From Flavobacteriales bacterium (lineage in GTDB: Bacteria > Bacteroidota > Bacteroidia > Flavobacteriales > Flavobacteriaceae): a DNA stretch of 42,822 bases. A program made the position numbers and the translations under genes. The notes under the pieces were generated by a model that worked only from the letters and a program-made list of their open reading frames with translations, searched no databases and was not told the origin of the DNA. Location of the stretch: NCBI GenBank assembly GCA_027024205.1, contig JALVST010000049.1, positions 1 through 42,822 on the forward strand. The letters run 5' to 3'. This document shows, one piece after another, positions 3,496 through 33,700 of this stretch (the stretch's first letter is position 1; every line of letters starts with the position of its first letter).

Positions 3496-3609
3496 ATGAC
3501 TTTTTCATTATTTGAAGATGATTTTTAACCCGGTTTCTTCCAAGGAGCTATTATCGGTGCTATAACCATTTTGGTTTGGAACTATTTTTACAATAAAAAT
3601 AAAAAATAA
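3496..3609 (+). pseudogene. Small membrane ORF interrupted by an in-frame TAA
   Basis: Continuous frame MTFSLFEDDF*PGFFQGAIIGAITILVWNYFYNKNKK*. Confidence 0.35.
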
Positions 3610-3613
3610 ACAG

Positions 3614-3793
3614 ATGAGAAAATACTTAATTTATTTCTTGACAGGTTCATTAATAGTGATTGCCGGTGCTTTGTTAAAAATTTTGAATATTTATGAAAAA
3701 GTTGAATACATTTACATTTTAGGATTTCTGTTTGAGACTTTTGCTATTATCAACATTATAAGAATTATTAAAAAAGATGCTGACCGGTCATAA
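3614..3793 (+). CDS. Small (59 aa) two-TM membrane protein, below the ORF-track length cutoff
   Basis: MRKYLIYFLTGSLIVIAGALLKILNIYEKVEYIYILGFLFETFAIINIIRIIKKDADRS*. Two hydrophobic segments; resembles GldL-like N-terminal architecture. Confidence 0.6.
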   Translation: MRKYLIYFLTGSLIVIAGALLKILNIYEKVEYIYILGFLFETFAIINIIRIIKKDADRS

Positions 3794-4689: not shown

Positions 4690-5625
4690 ATGTCCAAGAA
4701 ACCTAAAATTTGCGTTTTCGGCGCCGCCAATGTTGATATTACGGGGTTTCCCGATACGGAATTGGTATATAATGATGCCAATACCGGGCACATGAAAACC
4801 GCTGCTGGTGGCGTGGGTCGCAATATTGCCGAAAATCTCAAATATTTGGACTTTGAAGTGGAACTCATCAGTATTTTCGGTGACGATCCGCTAAGTGATT
4901 TTCTGATTAAAGATTGCCAAAACAAAGGTTTATACATTGACAGGAGTTTATTTCTCAAAGACATGCCCGCTTCTACTTTTATTGCCGTTCTCGACGACCA
5001 TAATGATTTGGCGGTAGGCATATCGGCTATGCAATTGTATGACGATATAGATGAGGATTTGTTTATTACCAATTTTCCCGGGAAAATAGAAGCGGAATAT
5101 GTAGTTTTGGAAACCAATCTGTCGAGCCGGATTTTAGAAGCGATTGTTGAAAAGTATCCCGGTAAAAAATTGGTGTTGGATACCGTTTCAGGCAAAAAAG
5201 CTTTACGGGCAAAATCTGTCTTAAAAGACATTTATATATTGAAAACCAATTTATTAGAAGCAGAAGTGCTCAGTGGTATCAAAATACAAAATGACCGTGA
5301 TTTGAAAAAATTAATATACTTTTTTCTAGTGAAAGGTGTTACAAAGGTTTTTATTACTTTGGGCAAACAAGGCGTAATTTACGGCACTCAAAATTTAATT
5401 GAAAAACAAAATCCCGTCCCGGCAACAGTTAAAAATACCACAGGTGCCGGCGATTCATTTGTGGCCGGTTTGGTTTATGCCGATGCTTTGCATAAAAGTG
5501 TGAGAGACATGGCAACTTTTGGTATGCAAATGGCGGCGTTGACGGTCAGTCACCATGAGGCTGTCAATCCGGATGTAAGAAATTTAGTATCAAGTAGCGA
5601 CGCTCTACAAGAGCGTCAAAATTGA
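4690..5625 (+). CDS. psuK: PfkB-family carbohydrate kinase, probable pseudouridine kinase
   Basis: CVFGAANVDITG...GHMKTAAGGVGRNIAENL and C-terminal NTTGAGDSFVAGLVYA; adjacent to psuG. Confidence 0.85.
   Translation: MSKKPKICVFGAANVDITGFPDTELVYNDANTGHMKTAAGGVGRNIAENLKYLDFEVELISIFGDDPLSDFLIKDCQNKGLYIDRSLFLKDMPASTFIAVLDDHNDLAVGISAMQLYDDIDEDLFITNFPGKIEAEYVVLETNLSSRILEAIVEKYPGKKLVLDTVSGKKALRAKSVLKDIYILKTNLLEAEVLSGIKIQNDRDLKKLIYFFLVKGVTKVFITLGKQGVIYGTQNLIEKQNPVPATVKNTTGAGDSFVAGLVYADALHKSVRDMATFGMQMAALTVSHHEAVNPDVRNLVSSSDALQERQN
5599..5617. repeat. Perfect 8-bp-stem hairpin at the 3' end of psuK
   Basis: gacgctct aca agagcgtc overlaps the last codons (SSSDALQERQN). Confidence 0.6.
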
Positions 5626-5754
5626 AAATGGAAAATTTTTCCTCATTTCTTTAAAATAGAAGTAGAATTATGATATGAAGTACAAAACTCACTTTCAACT
5701 TTTAACTAAGGTCACCGAGCTTGTCGAAGTGCAACTTTCAACGCGTATAACCAA

Positions 5755-6666
5755 ATGAGCAACTACATCGACATAAAACCCGAAGTAATCCAAGCGCTCC
5801 AAAACAACCGCCCTGTTGTGGCACTGGAATCCACCATTATTTCACATGGCATGCCTTATCCTAAAAACTTGGAAACAGCTTTACAGGTGGAAGCAGTTGT
5901 GAGAGCTGAAAGTGCCGTTCCGGCGACCATTGCATTGATAAATGGCAAAATAAAAGTTGGATTGAACAGAGAAGAAATAGAATTTTTAGCTAAAAAAGGA
6001 CGCGAAGTCATTAAGACCAGCCGGCGGGATATCCCTTATGTGTTATTACACAAACTGACCGGCGCCACAACCGTAGCGGCTACAATGATAGCCGCCGAAA
6101 GTGCAGGTATCAAAATTTTTGCTACCGGAGGAATAGGCGGGGTACATCGCGGGGCAACCGAAACTTTTGATATCTCCGCCGACTTACAAGAACTGGCACA
6201 GACCAATGTAGCTGTGGTTTGTGCCGGAATCAAATCCATATTGGACTTGGGACTGACCCTCGAATACCTCGAAACTATGGGCGTGCCGGTCTTGGGTTAT
6301 AAAACAGATGAATTACCGGCATTTTATACCCGTAAAAGCGGCTTTAAAGTCGATTATAAAATGGAAAATCCACAAGAAATTGCCGACTTGCTAAAAATTA
6401 AATGGGCAACCGGACTGGATGGAGGCGTTGTTATTGCCAATCCGGTACCCAAAGTTTATGCGTTAGACGAACAGATTATGAATAAAGCCATAGAACAAGC
6501 GCTTGCTGAACAGCAAAAAGCTGGTATTAAAGGCAAGGAAAGCACCCCGTTTTTATTAGCAAAAGTTAAAGAACTGACAAGCGGACAAAGTTTAGTTTCC
6601 AATATTGAGTTGGTGCTTAACAATGCGCGTTTGGCCGCCAGGATTGCCAGATTTTTGATCAAATGA
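5755..6666 (+). CDS. psuG: Pseudouridine-5'-phosphate glycosidase
   Basis: VVALESTIISHGMPYPKNLETA, TVAATMIAAESAGIKIFATGGIGGVHRGATETFDISADL, family-typical. Confidence 0.95.
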   Translation: MSNYIDIKPEVIQALQNNRPVVALESTIISHGMPYPKNLETALQVEAVVRAESAVPATIALINGKIKVGLNREEIEFLAKKGREVIKTSRRDIPYVLLHKLTGATTVAATMIAAESAGIKIFATGGIGGVHRGATETFDISADLQELAQTNVAVVCAGIKSILDLGLTLEYLETMGVPVLGYKTDELPAFYTRKSGFKVDYKMENPQEIADLLKIKWATGLDGGVVIANPVPKVYALDEQIMNKAIEQALAEQQKAGIKGKESTPFLLAKVKELTSGQSLVSNIELVLNNARLAARIARFLIK

Positions 6667-28356: not shown

Positions 28357-28767
28357 TTATTGTACCGGATCGTAATATTTGTGTGTTACGGGGTTAATTG
28401 GAAAATTTTTTCGAGCGGGATTACATCTGGTCAATCTGTCAAAAGCATCCATAATACCGTATATAACGCCGTTCTTTTTGATACTTTCAACAGCATATAC
28501 CGAACAAGAAGGTGTAAAAACACATGAATCAACATCCTGAGACGAAAAAACTTCTTTATAAATTAGAAATAATAGTGAAAAAACAAATTTAGCTTCGTTG
28601 TGTGATCCTTTTACTTGGTATGCCCAATTGTGATGATGCACTTGCGGTTCAAAAAAATTGTGAAATTTGGAAATACCGGTTTGTTCTGTATTTTGTCCCT
28701 GCGAATAAACGTTTAAACTCACTAATAACAGTAAAAAAATAAGGCAAATTCGTTTCATTTTAATCAT
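28357..28767 (-). CDS. YidD-family protein (membrane protein insertion efficiency factor-like) with N-terminal signal peptide
   Basis: CVFTPSCSVYAVESIKKNGVIYGIMDAFDRLTRCNPAR...YYDPVQ matches the YidD pattern; N-term MKRICLIFLLLLVSLNVYSQ. Confidence 0.8.
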   Translation of the reverse strand: MIKMKRICLIFLLLLVSLNVYSQGQNTEQTGISKFHNFFEPQVHHHNWAYQVKGSHNEAKFVFSLLFLIYKEVFSSQDVDSCVFTPSCSVYAVESIKKNGVIYGIMDAFDRLTRCNPARKNFPINPVTHKYYDPVQ

Positions 28768-29674
28768 TTTGAGTGTTGGATTGACACTTTGTGGCCGAAA
28801 TATAGTAATGTTTCTTTTCTTTATCGTTTAATTCGGTTGACAGGGCGACTTGCCGCAGTAAATTATTTTTGACAATGTCCGCTTCGCTAAATAAACGGTT
28901 ATGGCACAAAGTTAAATAATATTCGGTTTTAAAAAAAATGTTTTCAGGGTAAGTTTCGCTTAGCCATTTGATATAATCAAGTGCCTTTTGCATATCATGT
29001 TCAAGTGTAGCGTATATTTTATACAATAAATAATGAGCTTCGGTACGGACGACTGTATCCGTGTCAAATGTTGCTTTTTTCAAAAAATTTAAACCGGTTT
29101 CTTTGTTTTTGTCAGAATAACCGTATAGTAAAATATTGGCTAAAACGGATTCTTCTTTGGCATAATTAGTGAAATAATGATAGATACCTTTTATAAAATT
29201 TTTTCTACCACTTTCCGGCATTTCTGATATGAGCATTTCTGATAAATTCAGTATTTTTATCAATAATAAAGACGATTTGATTTTGTTTTTTTCCAAATTA
29301 TTTACTCGCATTTTTAATATATAGGCGCTGAGTCGCGTTAATTTGTCTTCCAAATTTTCATTTTGCCGTTCAGCCTCAATAGAACGGTTGATATATTTCA
29401 AACAAAGTTTTTGATTGGCTTCATCATTTTCACCGTTTAGAATATACCACCATTGCAAATTGGCTTTTAAATAATAAAAATGGTTATCGGGAAGATGTGC
29501 TGCTTTTAAATTCGCAATATCTTTTTCATATTTTGTGAATTGAAAGCGGTATATTTCGGTTAATACTTCGGAAATTTTTTTGTTTAACAACAAAGAGTCT
29601 TGCTGACCCGAAACATTGTAAGTCAGCAAAAATAAAAAGAAGATTTTCAAATAAATTGTGATTTTCAACTTCAA
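28760..29674 (-). CDS. Secreted TPR-like helical repeat protein
   Basis: Signal peptide LTYNVSGQ; helical repeats (KKATFDTDTVVRTEAHYLLYKIYATLEHDMQKALDYIKWLSETYPEN). Overlaps the yidD-like gene by 8 nt. Confidence 0.7.
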   Translation of the reverse strand: MKLKITIYLKIFFLFLLTYNVSGQQDSLLLNKKISEVLTEIYRFQFTKYEKDIANLKAAHLPDNHFYYLKANLQWWYILNGENDEANQKLCLKYINRSIEAERQNENLEDKLTRLSAYILKMRVNNLEKNKIKSSLLLIKILNLSEMLISEMPESGRKNFIKGIYHYFTNYAKEESVLANILLYGYSDKNKETGLNFLKKATFDTDTVVRTEAHYLLYKIYATLEHDMQKALDYIKWLSETYPENIFFKTEYYLTLCHNRLFSEADIVKNNLLRQVALSTELNDKEKKHYYISATKCQSNTQND

Positions 29675-30525
29675 TTTAATATATTTTTTTCAACTATTTT
29701 TACAATTTCATTATAAATTTTACTTCTGTTTTTTTGACGTTTTATATTTGCGAGAGATTCAGCTTTTCTATAACCGCCCGTGTAATATCTTTGAAACCAA
29801 GGCATAATGGCAACTGTCGCTGTTAAAAAATCTATATTGGCTGTAATAAACGTCATTAATGTTATCAAACCGGCACTTAACAATAATGATTTAACTCCTT
29901 CTTTTATATTGCCAACATAAAATTGACCCGAACCGGGTATAATCATACTAAGAATTTTAGCAGTCTTGGGATTGGGACGATACAATTTTTTATTTTTAAA
30001 TAGATTTTTTATGGCTTCTTTATCTTTATCATTGACACATTTTGTAAAATATTTTTCAGCTTCATCAAATTTTTCCAGTCCGAAATAGCATGTTCCCAGG
30101 TAAAAATTAATCTGTTGTTGTAATTTTTTTTCTTCCGTTTTTATGCTAAATAAATCCATTGTAGCATACAGAAAATCGCCTATCATCATTTCACAATATG
30201 CTTTGTTAAGCAAAAAATCTGCTTTTTTGCTGGGATTACTGGCATTTTTTATTGCTAGTTTATAAAAAGTAGTGGCTGTATAATAATCTTTTTCTATTAA
30301 TGACAGTTCAGCTATTTTTTCATACAATGGATACCGGTCTTTGTTGCCGGCAAAAAATAAGAGTCTTTTGTAGGTTTTTAAAGCGTTAGCATAATTTTTT
30401 AAGTTGTATTGCTCGTTGGCATACTGAAGTGTCTGTTCATAATTTTGAGCAAAACTATGTTGCCGGGAGAAAATACTAAAAAAAACGATGCTGAAAATAA
30501 GTATCCACTTTTGTTTTGGTCTCAT
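29671..30525 (-). CDS. TPR protein with C-terminal TM2-like/hydrophobic domain
   Basis: TPR (YANEQYNLKNYANALKTYKRLLFF) followed by ILSMIIPGSGQFYVGNIKEGVKSLLLSAGLITLMTF. Confidence 0.7.
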   Translation of the reverse strand: MRPKQKWILIFSIVFFSIFSRQHSFAQNYEQTLQYANEQYNLKNYANALKTYKRLLFFAGNKDRYPLYEKIAELSLIEKDYYTATTFYKLAIKNASNPSKKADFLLNKAYCEMMIGDFLYATMDLFSIKTEEKKLQQQINFYLGTCYFGLEKFDEAEKYFTKCVNDKDKEAIKNLFKNKKLYRPNPKTAKILSMIIPGSGQFYVGNIKEGVKSLLLSAGLITLMTFITANIDFLTATVAIMPWFQRYYTGGYRKAESLANIKRQKNRSKIYNEIVKIVEKNILN

Positions 30526-31354
30526 AAAACTTAAAATTATTGAAACGTATGGCTGCCTTGGCCGAACCGAATATATTACCTATATAAAAACCTGCTGCTA
30601 TGCTACCGAAAACCCAACCGAAGACACTTTTCGAACCGTTTTTTTTAAATCCTCTATATGCTTGGAAGGTATTACCACCGACAAAAATAAAAGCGGTAAC
30701 GGCATCAACGTAATCACCTGTATAAACTTTTCCCAAACCGGGAATAACACTTGATAAAGCGGCGGCAAGAAACGGACTTTTAAGTTTTTGTTGCAAAGCA
30801 AAATTATTGATTTGAACAATTTCTTGAAGTCTACCCAATTTTTGCGGATGTGTTTCCAAGAATTTTTTTGCTTGTAAATATGATTTGTTAAGCATCAAAT
30901 TGCTCCATTGAAATAAAAGTTTATCGGAGTTTTTTATCTTTATACCACTGTTCAAATAATGTAAAATTTGAGGTAAGGAATCACTTTCTTGTAATAACAC
31001 TAAGTATTTTACACTGATACTTTCCGGCATAACCAGTAAATTACCCTTATATAGTTGGCGTATGCGTTCTGCGGCTTTGAGGGTGTTACCGGTTTTATAA
31101 TAAGCGGTAATCAACAAATTTTTGTATTCATCGTTATTTCCATCCAAAAACACCAGTCTTTCTAATTCTTCTGCTGCTAAATTGTATTGTCTGCCTGCCA
31201 GTAAATATCGGGCATATTTATCACTGTTTTGCAGATTGTATAAGTCTTCATCCTGGGCATGTAAACTTCCGGATGATATAAAATATAATAATATAAAATA
31301 AATATTAAGACTGAGGTATTTTGAAATCATATTTGTCTTCATTTTGATAATCAT
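30476..31354 (-). CDS. TPR protein with C-terminal TM2-like/hydrophobic domain (paralog of the neighbour)
   Basis: YARYLLAGRQYNLAAEELERLVFLDGNN...AALSSVIPGLGKVYTGDYVDAVTAFIFVGGNTFQAYRGF; internal Mets at 31342 and 31330 are alternative starts. Confidence 0.7.
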   Translation of the reverse strand: MIIKMKTNMISKYLSLNIYFILLYFISSGSLHAQDEDLYNLQNSDKYARYLLAGRQYNLAAEELERLVFLDGNNDEYKNLLITAYYKTGNTLKAAERIRQLYKGNLLVMPESISVKYLVLLQESDSLPQILHYLNSGIKIKNSDKLLFQWSNLMLNKSYLQAKKFLETHPQKLGRLQEIVQINNFALQQKLKSPFLAAALSSVIPGLGKVYTGDYVDAVTAFIFVGGNTFQAYRGFKKNGSKSVFGWVFGSIAAGFYIGNIFGSAKAAIRFNNFKFYETKTKVDTYFQHRFF

Positions 31355-31988
31355 CTACTTTGATATTTTCATATGTAGTGATTTCGTAAAATTTTTCACC
31401 GTTGATTATTTTTTCTATGATAATTTCAGTAGGAAAAGCCATCCCGTTTATCATTTTGTATTTTCTAAAAAATTGACGGCTGATAATTATATTGTCTTTA
31501 TTAAAGAATATAACACCGGTTATATTGTCATTGTTTTTCATTATCATGACTTTACCCATAAAATTTTTATAGGCTGCCGGTGGTTCCCAAGTACTAATGA
31601 TATTTTCACCGTCTTTTTCGACATTAGTTAAAACAAATTGTGAATCTTTCAACCCGTAATCAGAAAGTTTACCGTTGAGGGCCATGCTGAAAATAGTAAA
31701 ATCGGATATGTCCAGTGACTTGGACTTTCTTATTAATTTTCCGTTTTTTATTTTGTAAAGTAAGGTGTCTTGTTGTACCCATGTCTCTTTTTGGGGAAAT
31801 CTTACGTCAAAAACGACCTTTTTGATGTTTTTATCATAATAAACAGTTCCTATGGTAAGATGTTGTGTGCCGTCAGGTGATTTGCCTTTAATCGTGTAAT
31901 CGGCACGCATTCTGAAATGTTCTTGTGCTGAAACTGGTGTTAAACATGTGGTAATAACAATTAATAATAAAAGTTTTTTAATATTCAT
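31305..31988 (-). CDS. LolA-like outer membrane lipoprotein carrier-fold protein
   Basis: Signal peptide; HFRMRADYTIKGKSPDGTQHLTIGTVYYDKNIKKVVFDVRFPQKETWVQQDTLLYKIKNGKLI...FPTEIIIEKIINGEKFYEITTYENIKVD. Confidence 0.65.
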   Translation of the reverse strand: MNIKKLLLLIVITTCLTPVSAQEHFRMRADYTIKGKSPDGTQHLTIGTVYYDKNIKKVVFDVRFPQKETWVQQDTLLYKIKNGKLIRKSKSLDISDFTIFSMALNGKLSDYGLKDSQFVLTNVEKDGENIISTWEPPAAYKNFMGKVMIMKNNDNITGVIFFNKDNIIISRQFFRKYKMINGMAFPTEIIIEKIINGEKFYEITTYENIKVDDYQNEDKYDFKIPQS

Positions 31989-32033
31989 TTTGTTTTATTT
32001 AAAAGTGTAAATATACAGAAAAAACCATATCAA

Positions 32034-32070
32034 AAAATAAAGGTTTTGGAAATCCCAAAACCTTTATTTT
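32034..32070 (-). terminator. Strong 16-bp-stem terminator hairpin between the tandem array and the LolA-like gene
   Basis: aaaataaaggttttgg aaatc ccaaaacctttatttt. Confidence 0.85.
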
Positions 32071-32088: not shown

Positions 32089-32526
32089 TTAGTAAGCTGC
32101 CGTTGCTGCGCCAAACAAAGCACCGTATATTACAAGTTCAAATATAATCCAACCAGCGGTAGCTGCCAAACAACCCCAAAGAGCTTTTTTAGCTTCCTCT
32201 TTGTCATTGTCTGTCAACAGATATGCAAGAACAACTCCGATAGGTCCCAATACACAACCCCATAAAAATGAAGGAATACCGAGTGCACCGTCCGGTAGCG
32301 GAACGGAAGGAACACTTGATAAGGCCATATTGTTAATCATGTCGGCATCGGTAACCATCAAGTCGTTATAAGTTAAATTTTCGGTTTTTACTTTGTTGGC
32401 CAATTGATCCAACTGTGCAAAATCCTGTTTAACTTGATCGTAGTTCAACTTAAACAAGTCACTACTTGAAGCGAAGCTAAAACTTGCAACAAAAAGCAAG
32501 GCTAAGGTTAGATAAATTTTTTTCAT
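32089..32526 (-). CDS. Small secreted/membrane protein, tandem paralog 1 (GIPSFLWGC family)
   Basis: MKKIYLTLALLFVASFSFASSSDLFKLNYDQVKQDFAQLDQLANKVK...LPDGALGIPSFLWGCVLGPIGVVLAYLL; ORF-track start 32553 trimmed. Confidence 0.8.
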   Translation of the reverse strand: MKKIYLTLALLFVASFSFASSSDLFKLNYDQVKQDFAQLDQLANKVKTENLTYNDLMVTDADMINNMALSSVPSVPLPDGALGIPSFLWGCVLGPIGVVLAYLLTDNDKEEAKKALWGCLAATAGWIIFELVIYGALFGAATAAY

Positions 32527-32554
32527 AGTTATAGGTTTTAAATTTAAAATCACA

Positions 32555-32562
32555 CAAATTTA
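32555..32562 (-). promoter_or_regulatory. -7 element TAAATTTG (minus strand) upstream of paralog 1
   Basis: Plus-strand caaattta, about 29 nt before the start codon. Confidence 0.45.
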
Positions 32563-32629
32563 ATATTTTATTTTTATTATACAAGTGAATTTGTTCTTTT
32601 TTCATTAAAAAATGATTTTTTTTTTTAAA

Positions 32630-33070
32630 TTATGGGGAAGGAAAATTAAAATTTAATTCAAAATTATTTAAAAATATTATTAGAGTTGTAACTATCACCG
32701 CAGTCTCAACTATGCATCCCAGTATTGCCTTTTTCTCTTCTTTTGAGTCATGGGTTGTTATATAGCTGATGATTACTCCAAGAGGTCCAAGAATACAACC
32801 CCATAAAAAAGAGGGGATACCGAGAGCGCCATCAGGTAACAATGGAATGGAAGGAGCACTTGAGATGGCCAAATTGTTAATTAAGCCAGTATCGGTCGCT
32901 GTCAGGTCTTCATAAGTTAAATTGCCGGCCTTTACTTTTTCTGCCAATTGATCCAATTGTTTAAAATCTTGTTTGACCTGATTGTAGTTTAATTTAAACA
33001 AGTCACTACTCGATGCTATTGTTAAATTAGCAACAACAAATAGTGCTATGATTATATAAGTTTTTTTCAT
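32630..33070 (-). CDS. Small secreted/membrane protein, tandem paralog 2
   Basis: MKKTYIIIALFVVANLTIASSSDLFKLNYNQVKQDFKQLDQLAEKVK...GIPSFLWGCILGPLGVIISYI; ORF-track start 33094 trimmed. Confidence 0.8.
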   Translation of the reverse strand: MKKTYIIIALFVVANLTIASSSDLFKLNYNQVKQDFKQLDQLAEKVKAGNLTYEDLTATDTGLINNLAISSAPSIPLLPDGALGIPSFLWGCILGPLGVIISYITTHDSKEEKKAILGCIVETAVIVTTLIIFLNNFELNFNFPSP

Positions 33071-33271
33071 TATAATAAATTTATAATCATACAAATTTTT
33101 TTTTTCATTTCAAAATTAAGAAATCTGTACTTTACACACTTTTTGGGATTCTATCTAAAATATCCCGCATTTGGTCATTCCGGTAACGTAATTCATCTAC
33201 ATTACCAAAATTAAAATTAATAAAAATTTATCTTACAAAAAATGACAAATCCGGTTTGTATCAAATTATTA

Positions 33272-33700
33272 TTAAAATCCCCCGCCTATTATAAAAATCC
33301 AAATAGGAGCAGTAGCTCCAATTATTACGTAAATTTCAAGCAGACAACCTAATAATGCATGCTTTACTTCTTTTTTATTTTTACCGGTAGCAAAATATGA
33401 AATAATCACTCCAATTGGTCCCAGTATGCACCCCCAAAAGAAAGACGGTATGCCCAAAATTCCGTCCGGTAGTGAAAGGGAAGGAACTTTTGATAAGGCC
33501 ATATTGTTAATCATGTTGGCATCGGTAACCATCAAGTCATTGTAAGTTAAATTTTCCGTTTTCACTTTATTTGCCAATTGATTCAGTTGTGCAAAATCTT
33601 GTTTCACTTGATTGTAGTCCAATTTAAACAAGTCACTACTCGATGCAAATGTTAAATTAGCAACAAACAGTAATACTAAACTTAGGTAAATATTTTTCAT
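33272..33700 (-). CDS. Small secreted/membrane protein, tandem paralog 3
   Basis: MKNIYLSLVLLFVANLTFASSSDLFKLDYNQVKQDFAQLNQLANKVK...GIPSFFWGCILGPIGVIISYF; start overlaps the gltX stop by 4 nt. Confidence 0.8.
   Translation of the reverse strand: MKNIYLSLVLLFVANLTFASSSDLFKLDYNQVKQDFAQLNQLANKVKTENLTYNDLMVTDANMINNMALSKVPSLSLPDGILGIPSFFWGCILGPIGVIISYFATGKNKKEVKHALLGCLLEIYVIIGATAPIWIFIIGGGF

Follow-up and report, generated by a model that had tools for sequence, protein, structure and literature searches.

Why does a flavobacterial genome encode three small, related proteins with signal-like N-termini in tandem, directly ahead of genes for a LolA-fold protein, a YidD with a signal peptide and several TPR proteins? 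The array lies at 32089-33700 of the window, by which we mean the whole 42,822-nucleotide stretch of contig JALVST010000049.1 that was analyzed (Flavobacteriales bacterium, assembly GCA_027024205.1).

A tandem array of three small exported proteins

The array consists of three minus-strand ORFs encoding 142, 146 and 145 aa, and each product begins with a basic n-region followed by a hydrophobic segment, which gives it a signal-like N-terminus. The features of the array are as follows:

33697..33700, minus strand: ATGA overlap of the gltX TGA with the ATG of copy 1
33272..33700, minus strand: hairpin-family copy 1, 142 aa, start overlapping the gltX stop
32630..33070, minus strand: hairpin-family copy 2, 146 aa
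32089..32526, minus strand: hairpin-family copy 3, 145 aa counted from the ATG, modeled with AlphaFold2
32032..32070, minus strand: terminator-like hairpin (16-bp stem) and T tract, at the boundary of array and cassette

Copies 2 and 3 are 64% and 73% identical to copy 1, in one order or the other. ORFs and alignment bear out the three-copy array with shared motifs and signal-like N-termini described in the initial annotation, which was made from the sequence letters, and the other landmarks are where that annotation had placed them: the array starts inside the gltX stop codon and is followed by a strong terminator, the region of which folds at -22.9 kcal/mol. The C-terminal tails diverge as strongly as had been claimed, and a frameshift is not the cause, since alternative reading frames restore no similarity. 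The comparison of dN with dS that had been proposed as a check could be read for one part of the proteins: in the alignable parts of the three copies dN lies well below dS, and these parts are under purifying selection; the tails are too short and too saturated to support any such claim.

The overlap with gltX does not amount to a functional link, since the upstream gene is nrdB in a congener and the flanks vary; the arrangement is not kept in relatives. When the window genome was searched, no additional convincing family copy was found, and a weak match at window 3526-3651 has two stops inside and is probably due to chance. Between copies 1 and 2, at window 33183-33210, there is a perfect-looking inverted repeat (ggtaacgtaattcatctacattacc) with no T tract after it. 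Elsewhere in the window, at 4690-6666, lies what we take, by eye, to be a PfkB-like sugar kinase gene and then a pseudouridine-5'-phosphate glycosidase look-alike.

A conserved membrane hairpin

Members of the family consist of a signal peptide, a variable N-domain, a conserved two-helix membrane hairpin and a short variable tail; signal-like N-termini are present in 47/47 proteins, signal peptides and topology being called from hydrophobicity. The hairpin consensus is LGIPSF-WGC...GVxxxY...KKALxGC, and in an alignment of 47 members L82, G83, P85, W89, G90, G97 and G118 are invariant, with C91, Y102, K113, A115 and C119 near-invariant. When loci are compared, the hairpin has a median identity of 0.57, the N-domain of 0.25 and the tail of 0.26. 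The conserved element across the family is therefore the hairpin and not the N-domain. The conserved N-terminal module with variable C-termini noted in the initial annotation holds inside the recent array and fails family-wide; it is a trait of recent local duplication alone. The final residue of the hairpin proteins is mostly aromatic or branched (Y in 19, I in 8 and F in 6 of 47) and follows an A/S/T run. A secreted protein at L145:7512-7880 (genome G676) has the N-domain pattern of the family and a single membrane helix.

To date no characterized family contains these proteins, in agreement with the earlier failure to recognize a function from the letters. Nothing above cut-off was found in Pfam or NCBIfam, nor was there any sequence match in the PDB. 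Structure prediction had also been suggested at the outset. The AlphaFold2 model of copy 3 comprises an N-terminal helix, a helical N-domain (29-67) and two further helices, one spanning 86-104 with a break at 94 and the other 109-144; its confidence is modest (pLDDT 77.7, pTM 0.44) and it has no fold match in the PDB. Homology between the hairpin proteins and the TPR proteins encoded nearby was tested and rejected.

The downstream cassette

The genes that follow the array form a cassette encoding a LolA-fold protein, a YidD that bears a signal peptide, a pair of paralogous TPR/DUF5683-like proteins and often a third TPR-like protein:

31305..31988, minus strand: LolA-fold exported protein (AlphaFold2 pLDDT 93.5)
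30476..31354, minus strand: TPR protein a, with a DUF5683/TM2-like C-terminal membrane domain
29671..30525, minus strand: TPR protein b, paralogue of a
28760..29674, minus strand: third TPR-like protein, in about two thirds of cassettes
28357..28767, minus strand: exported YidD, with signal peptide and conserved SSQD and three cysteines; second YidD of the genome

The product of 31305-31988 has a LolA/LolB β fold, matching the LolA superfamily with a Foldseek probability of 1.00 (best E 4.9e-11, 3buu), and RseB is also among its matches. By sequence it matches none of the solved LolA proteins in the PDB, and PF17131 was reached only below cut-off, in 2/20 cassette LolA members. The cassette YidD exceeds both curated cut-offs, with 61.7 versus 27 bits for PF01809 and 54.3 versus 40 for TIGR00278, and it is not of the housekeeping type: a signal-like N-terminus is present in 29/29 aligned members, and the window genome has a separate canonical, housekeeping YidD on another contig (C14). 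The SSQD stretch is invariant. Signal-like N-termini also occur in 32/35 LolA and 31/32 TPR sequences. TPR proteins a and b are paralogous (hhalign 99.5%) and have weak DUF5683/TM2 similarity at the C-terminus.

Scoring a hairpin of ≤ -10 kcal/mol with a T tract behind it, we found such an element at 25/33 junctions between family and LolA genes, where shuffled sequence gave 0.4 on average, and at 2/12 junctions between family copies; at the other 8/33 family-LolA junctions no attenuator was detected. The machinery genes downstream abut or overlap at 91/92 junctions, the overlaps being approximate because gene starts in relatives were set mechanically. Because a terminator-like attenuator stands between array and machinery genes, this layout suggests that the hairpin protein is produced in excess over its machinery.

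Distribution, co-occurrence and transfer

A profile search over Bacteroidota, one of the checks proposed initially, revealed a family that extends across the phylum. Within a partial sample of genomes it was present in 36/395 of the class (about 9%), its carriers being distributed over many families; in the order sample 11/396 genomes had matches, weaker or fewer, and a clear array occurs in 2/13 genomes of the genus, the window genome counted. The family also appears in 36 contigs of named genomes, nearly all labeled Bacteroidota, and culturable carriers include Emticicia, Mariniphaga, Maribellus and Tangfeifania. A wider phylum sample held no carrier besides the window genome, which is weak evidence of absence as few candidates per genome were scored.

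Conservation of the neighborhood, which the initial annotation had also wanted checked, is very strong. HMMs for which the window supplied the seeds showed one to five family copies, LolA-like, YidD, TPR and TPR genes and often the third TPR-like gene at nearly every locus of sufficient length; YidD is the last gene of the cassette in the window and in four relatives (L031-L034). Clustering of all other ORFs around the loci produced no further conserved gene. Among the 395 genomes, 36 have the family, 36 have the cassette LolA (counted at E below 1e-40) and 35 have both (Fisher P 8e-48, uncorrected for kinship of the genomes). Of the two discordant genomes, the one counted as LolA-only (G708) has a divergent family member within its cassette, and the one counted as family-only (G676) encodes a short protein that has one membrane helix and lacks both cassette LolA and exported YidD. 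Physical linkage is not always maintained. In one group (e.g. G526) family and cassette lie on different contigs and both are present, and the four family genes of another genome (G773) are spread over four contigs, alongside a single cassette LolA. Among the cassette components, copy number varies (1-5) in the hairpin protein only.

In a tree of concatenated cassette proteins the window cassette groups with Saprospiraceae (support 0.985) and that of its congener with other Bacteroidota. Since the two cassettes fall in different tree groups, their placement suggests that the cassette has moved by horizontal transfer.

A paralogous cassette with a secreted TM2-type protein

A second operon set encodes LolA-B, which matches the LolA profile at E 1e-12 to 1e-25, together with YidD-B and two TPRs. 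Close to these operons is a gene for a small secreted protein, detected first by weak matches to the hairpin-family profile. This protein is TM2-like in Pfam and does pass the PF05154 cut-off (best E 5e-13), most members falling below it. Strong matches, defined by E below about 1e-20, were found in 25 genomes, all of them among the 26 with LolA-B and none elsewhere (P 1e-38), mostly within 5 kb. Loci of these LolA-YidD-TPR-TPR cassettes in other Bacteroidota are:

L130:9657-10073, L131:6078-6515, L132:11957-12367, L133:5044-5457, L137:16331-17263, L147:12626-13033

Are the two secreted families related? Pairwise profile comparison, the E-values of which are not database-scale, gave 94.6% when signal peptides were included and 17.9% when they were left off; the hairpin alone gave nothing, and 100 column shuffles gave ≤1.7%. 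Common architecture is clear, and common descent is no more than plausible. The TM2-type protein has a conserved N-x-K/W-F-x-W-like tail and is often present in at least two copies.

Possible function of the hairpin proteins and their cassette

Co-occurrence, linkage and the repetition of the scheme in a paralogous cassette leave us almost certain that the hairpin proteins act jointly with the cassette. What form might this joint action take? From what was computed here (the family, its architecture, the cassette, the co-occurrence, the attenuator and the LolA fold) we infer, tentatively, a relation of client and machinery, which we judge a good possibility short of an even chance: the hairpin proteins would be an abundant, copy-variable product that the cassette, as a dedicated pathway present at a low level, handles in the envelope. 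Copy-number variation and the attenuator are the reasons for regarding the hairpin protein as an abundant client or structural product, and the attenuator would cause the array to be made in excess. The protein would be exported by Sec and lose its signal peptide, its N-domain would be periplasmic and its hairpin would become embedded in a membrane, although which membrane finally holds it, like the activity of each component, belongs to the conditional part of the proposal. The LolA-fold protein may shield the hydrophobic hairpin or carry it through the periplasm, the exported YidD may aid its insertion or folding at the membrane, and the TPR pair, whose membrane domains are TM2-like, could form a membrane scaffold. 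Carriage and insertion are proposed by analogy, because those folds act so elsewhere; the known role of YidD is cytoplasmic, and a periplasmic role here is an extrapolation. A more specific version, which we consider rather unlikely, is that Bacteroidota have a Lol-like route by which α-helical hairpin proteins would be delivered and inserted from the periplasmic side by a LolA-fold carrier together with an exported YidD, the cargo being helical and not a lipoprotein, with two paralogous versions that each have their own cargo.

The same linkage and co-occurrence could arise if all these proteins formed one stable envelope complex, for instance in transport, stress sensing or signaling, with the hairpin protein as its abundant small subunit and the LolA-fold protein and YidD as structural or ligand-binding components instead of assembly factors. 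The TPR proteins do bear membrane domains, and LolA-like folds also act as sensors, RseB being a match of this one. However, the confinement of copy variation to a single component, the presence of extra copies at unlinked sites and the attenuator fit a product and its machinery better, and one complex, although quite possible, seems to us on balance doubtful.

Tandem copies with divergent hydrophobic tails had led the initial annotation to suggest diversifying duplication in self-recognition or immunity, and an apparently horizontally moved cassette could be read as the export or immunity functions of secreted membrane-active peptides whose tails were diversified by duplication. Against this, the membrane hairpin is the conserved part, and the whole proteins diverge at the pace of their neighbors (median identity 0.36, versus 0.32-0.38 for LolA, YidD and TPRs). 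Copy pairs are retained as orthologues between two relatives (L031 and L033), dN is below dS where the copies can be aligned, the proteins have no family match in PHROGs or PADLOC, and the family was absent from the viral contigs, phages and plasmids searched. Diversification for self-recognition is thus very unlikely, and among the guesses made initially that of envelope-insertion substrates is the best. Still less probable, and already disfavored, is that hairpin proteins and cassette have unrelated roles and merely travel together in a mobile operon, a view that the horizontal mobility of the cassette would favor: the other flanking genes are not conserved, the co-occurrence holds where the genes are on different contigs, and in the paralogous cassette the pairing recurs, there with another secreted hairpin protein.

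Three ORFs that had no assignment can thereby be seen as the key component of a gene system that is now defined and has a paralogous counterpart in other genomes. The system supplies a context for two proteins, a YidD that bears an export signal and a LolA-fold protein paired with a non-lipoprotein; as this context is a single operon, what YidD does and what TM2-like hairpins do can be tested together.

Comparison with known systems

The individual folds are known, and the system is apparently undescribed in the sources searched: no YidD-LolA-TPR or TM2-YidD operon is described in the open-access literature that we searched. The cassette YidD has the CxFxPSCS...DR..RC core of the YidD family (PF01809, TIGR00278) and differs from canonical members in its signal peptide, in additional N-terminal sequence, in having SSQD where they have the ISPLLG stretch, and in its operon context. 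The first hairpin helix weakly resembles the CCC motif membrane protein (NF040945; E 0.02-0.09), but the hairpin proteins score 15 bits where the cut-off is 65.

The hairpin family has a build similar to that of TM2-domain proteins (PF05154), such as TM2D1-3 of animals, in which a signal sequence and a divergent outer domain precede a conserved hairpin and a short tail (PMC8714088). Both have a signal peptide, a divergent N-domain, a two-helix hairpin with a short loop and a short variable tail, a likeness from which we claim no descent. The HR(F/Y)Y-G signature that follows LGxxG in TM2 is missing from the hairpin family, which has LGxxGVxxVY and no HR. Direct TM2 membership was rejected: no match to PF05154 was found among 47 family members at E 0.01, and comparison of the hairpin profiles by themselves showed no similarity.

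With the Lol pathway (LolA/LolB) of Bacteroidota the cassette has in common an exported LolA-fold protein, but sequence similarity to solved LolA proteins is undetectable, the protein it is paired with is a helical hairpin lacking a lipobox, and YidD and TPR partners are added. A LolA paralogue that serves one dedicated pathway is encoded in the flexirubin operon (PMC11885536).
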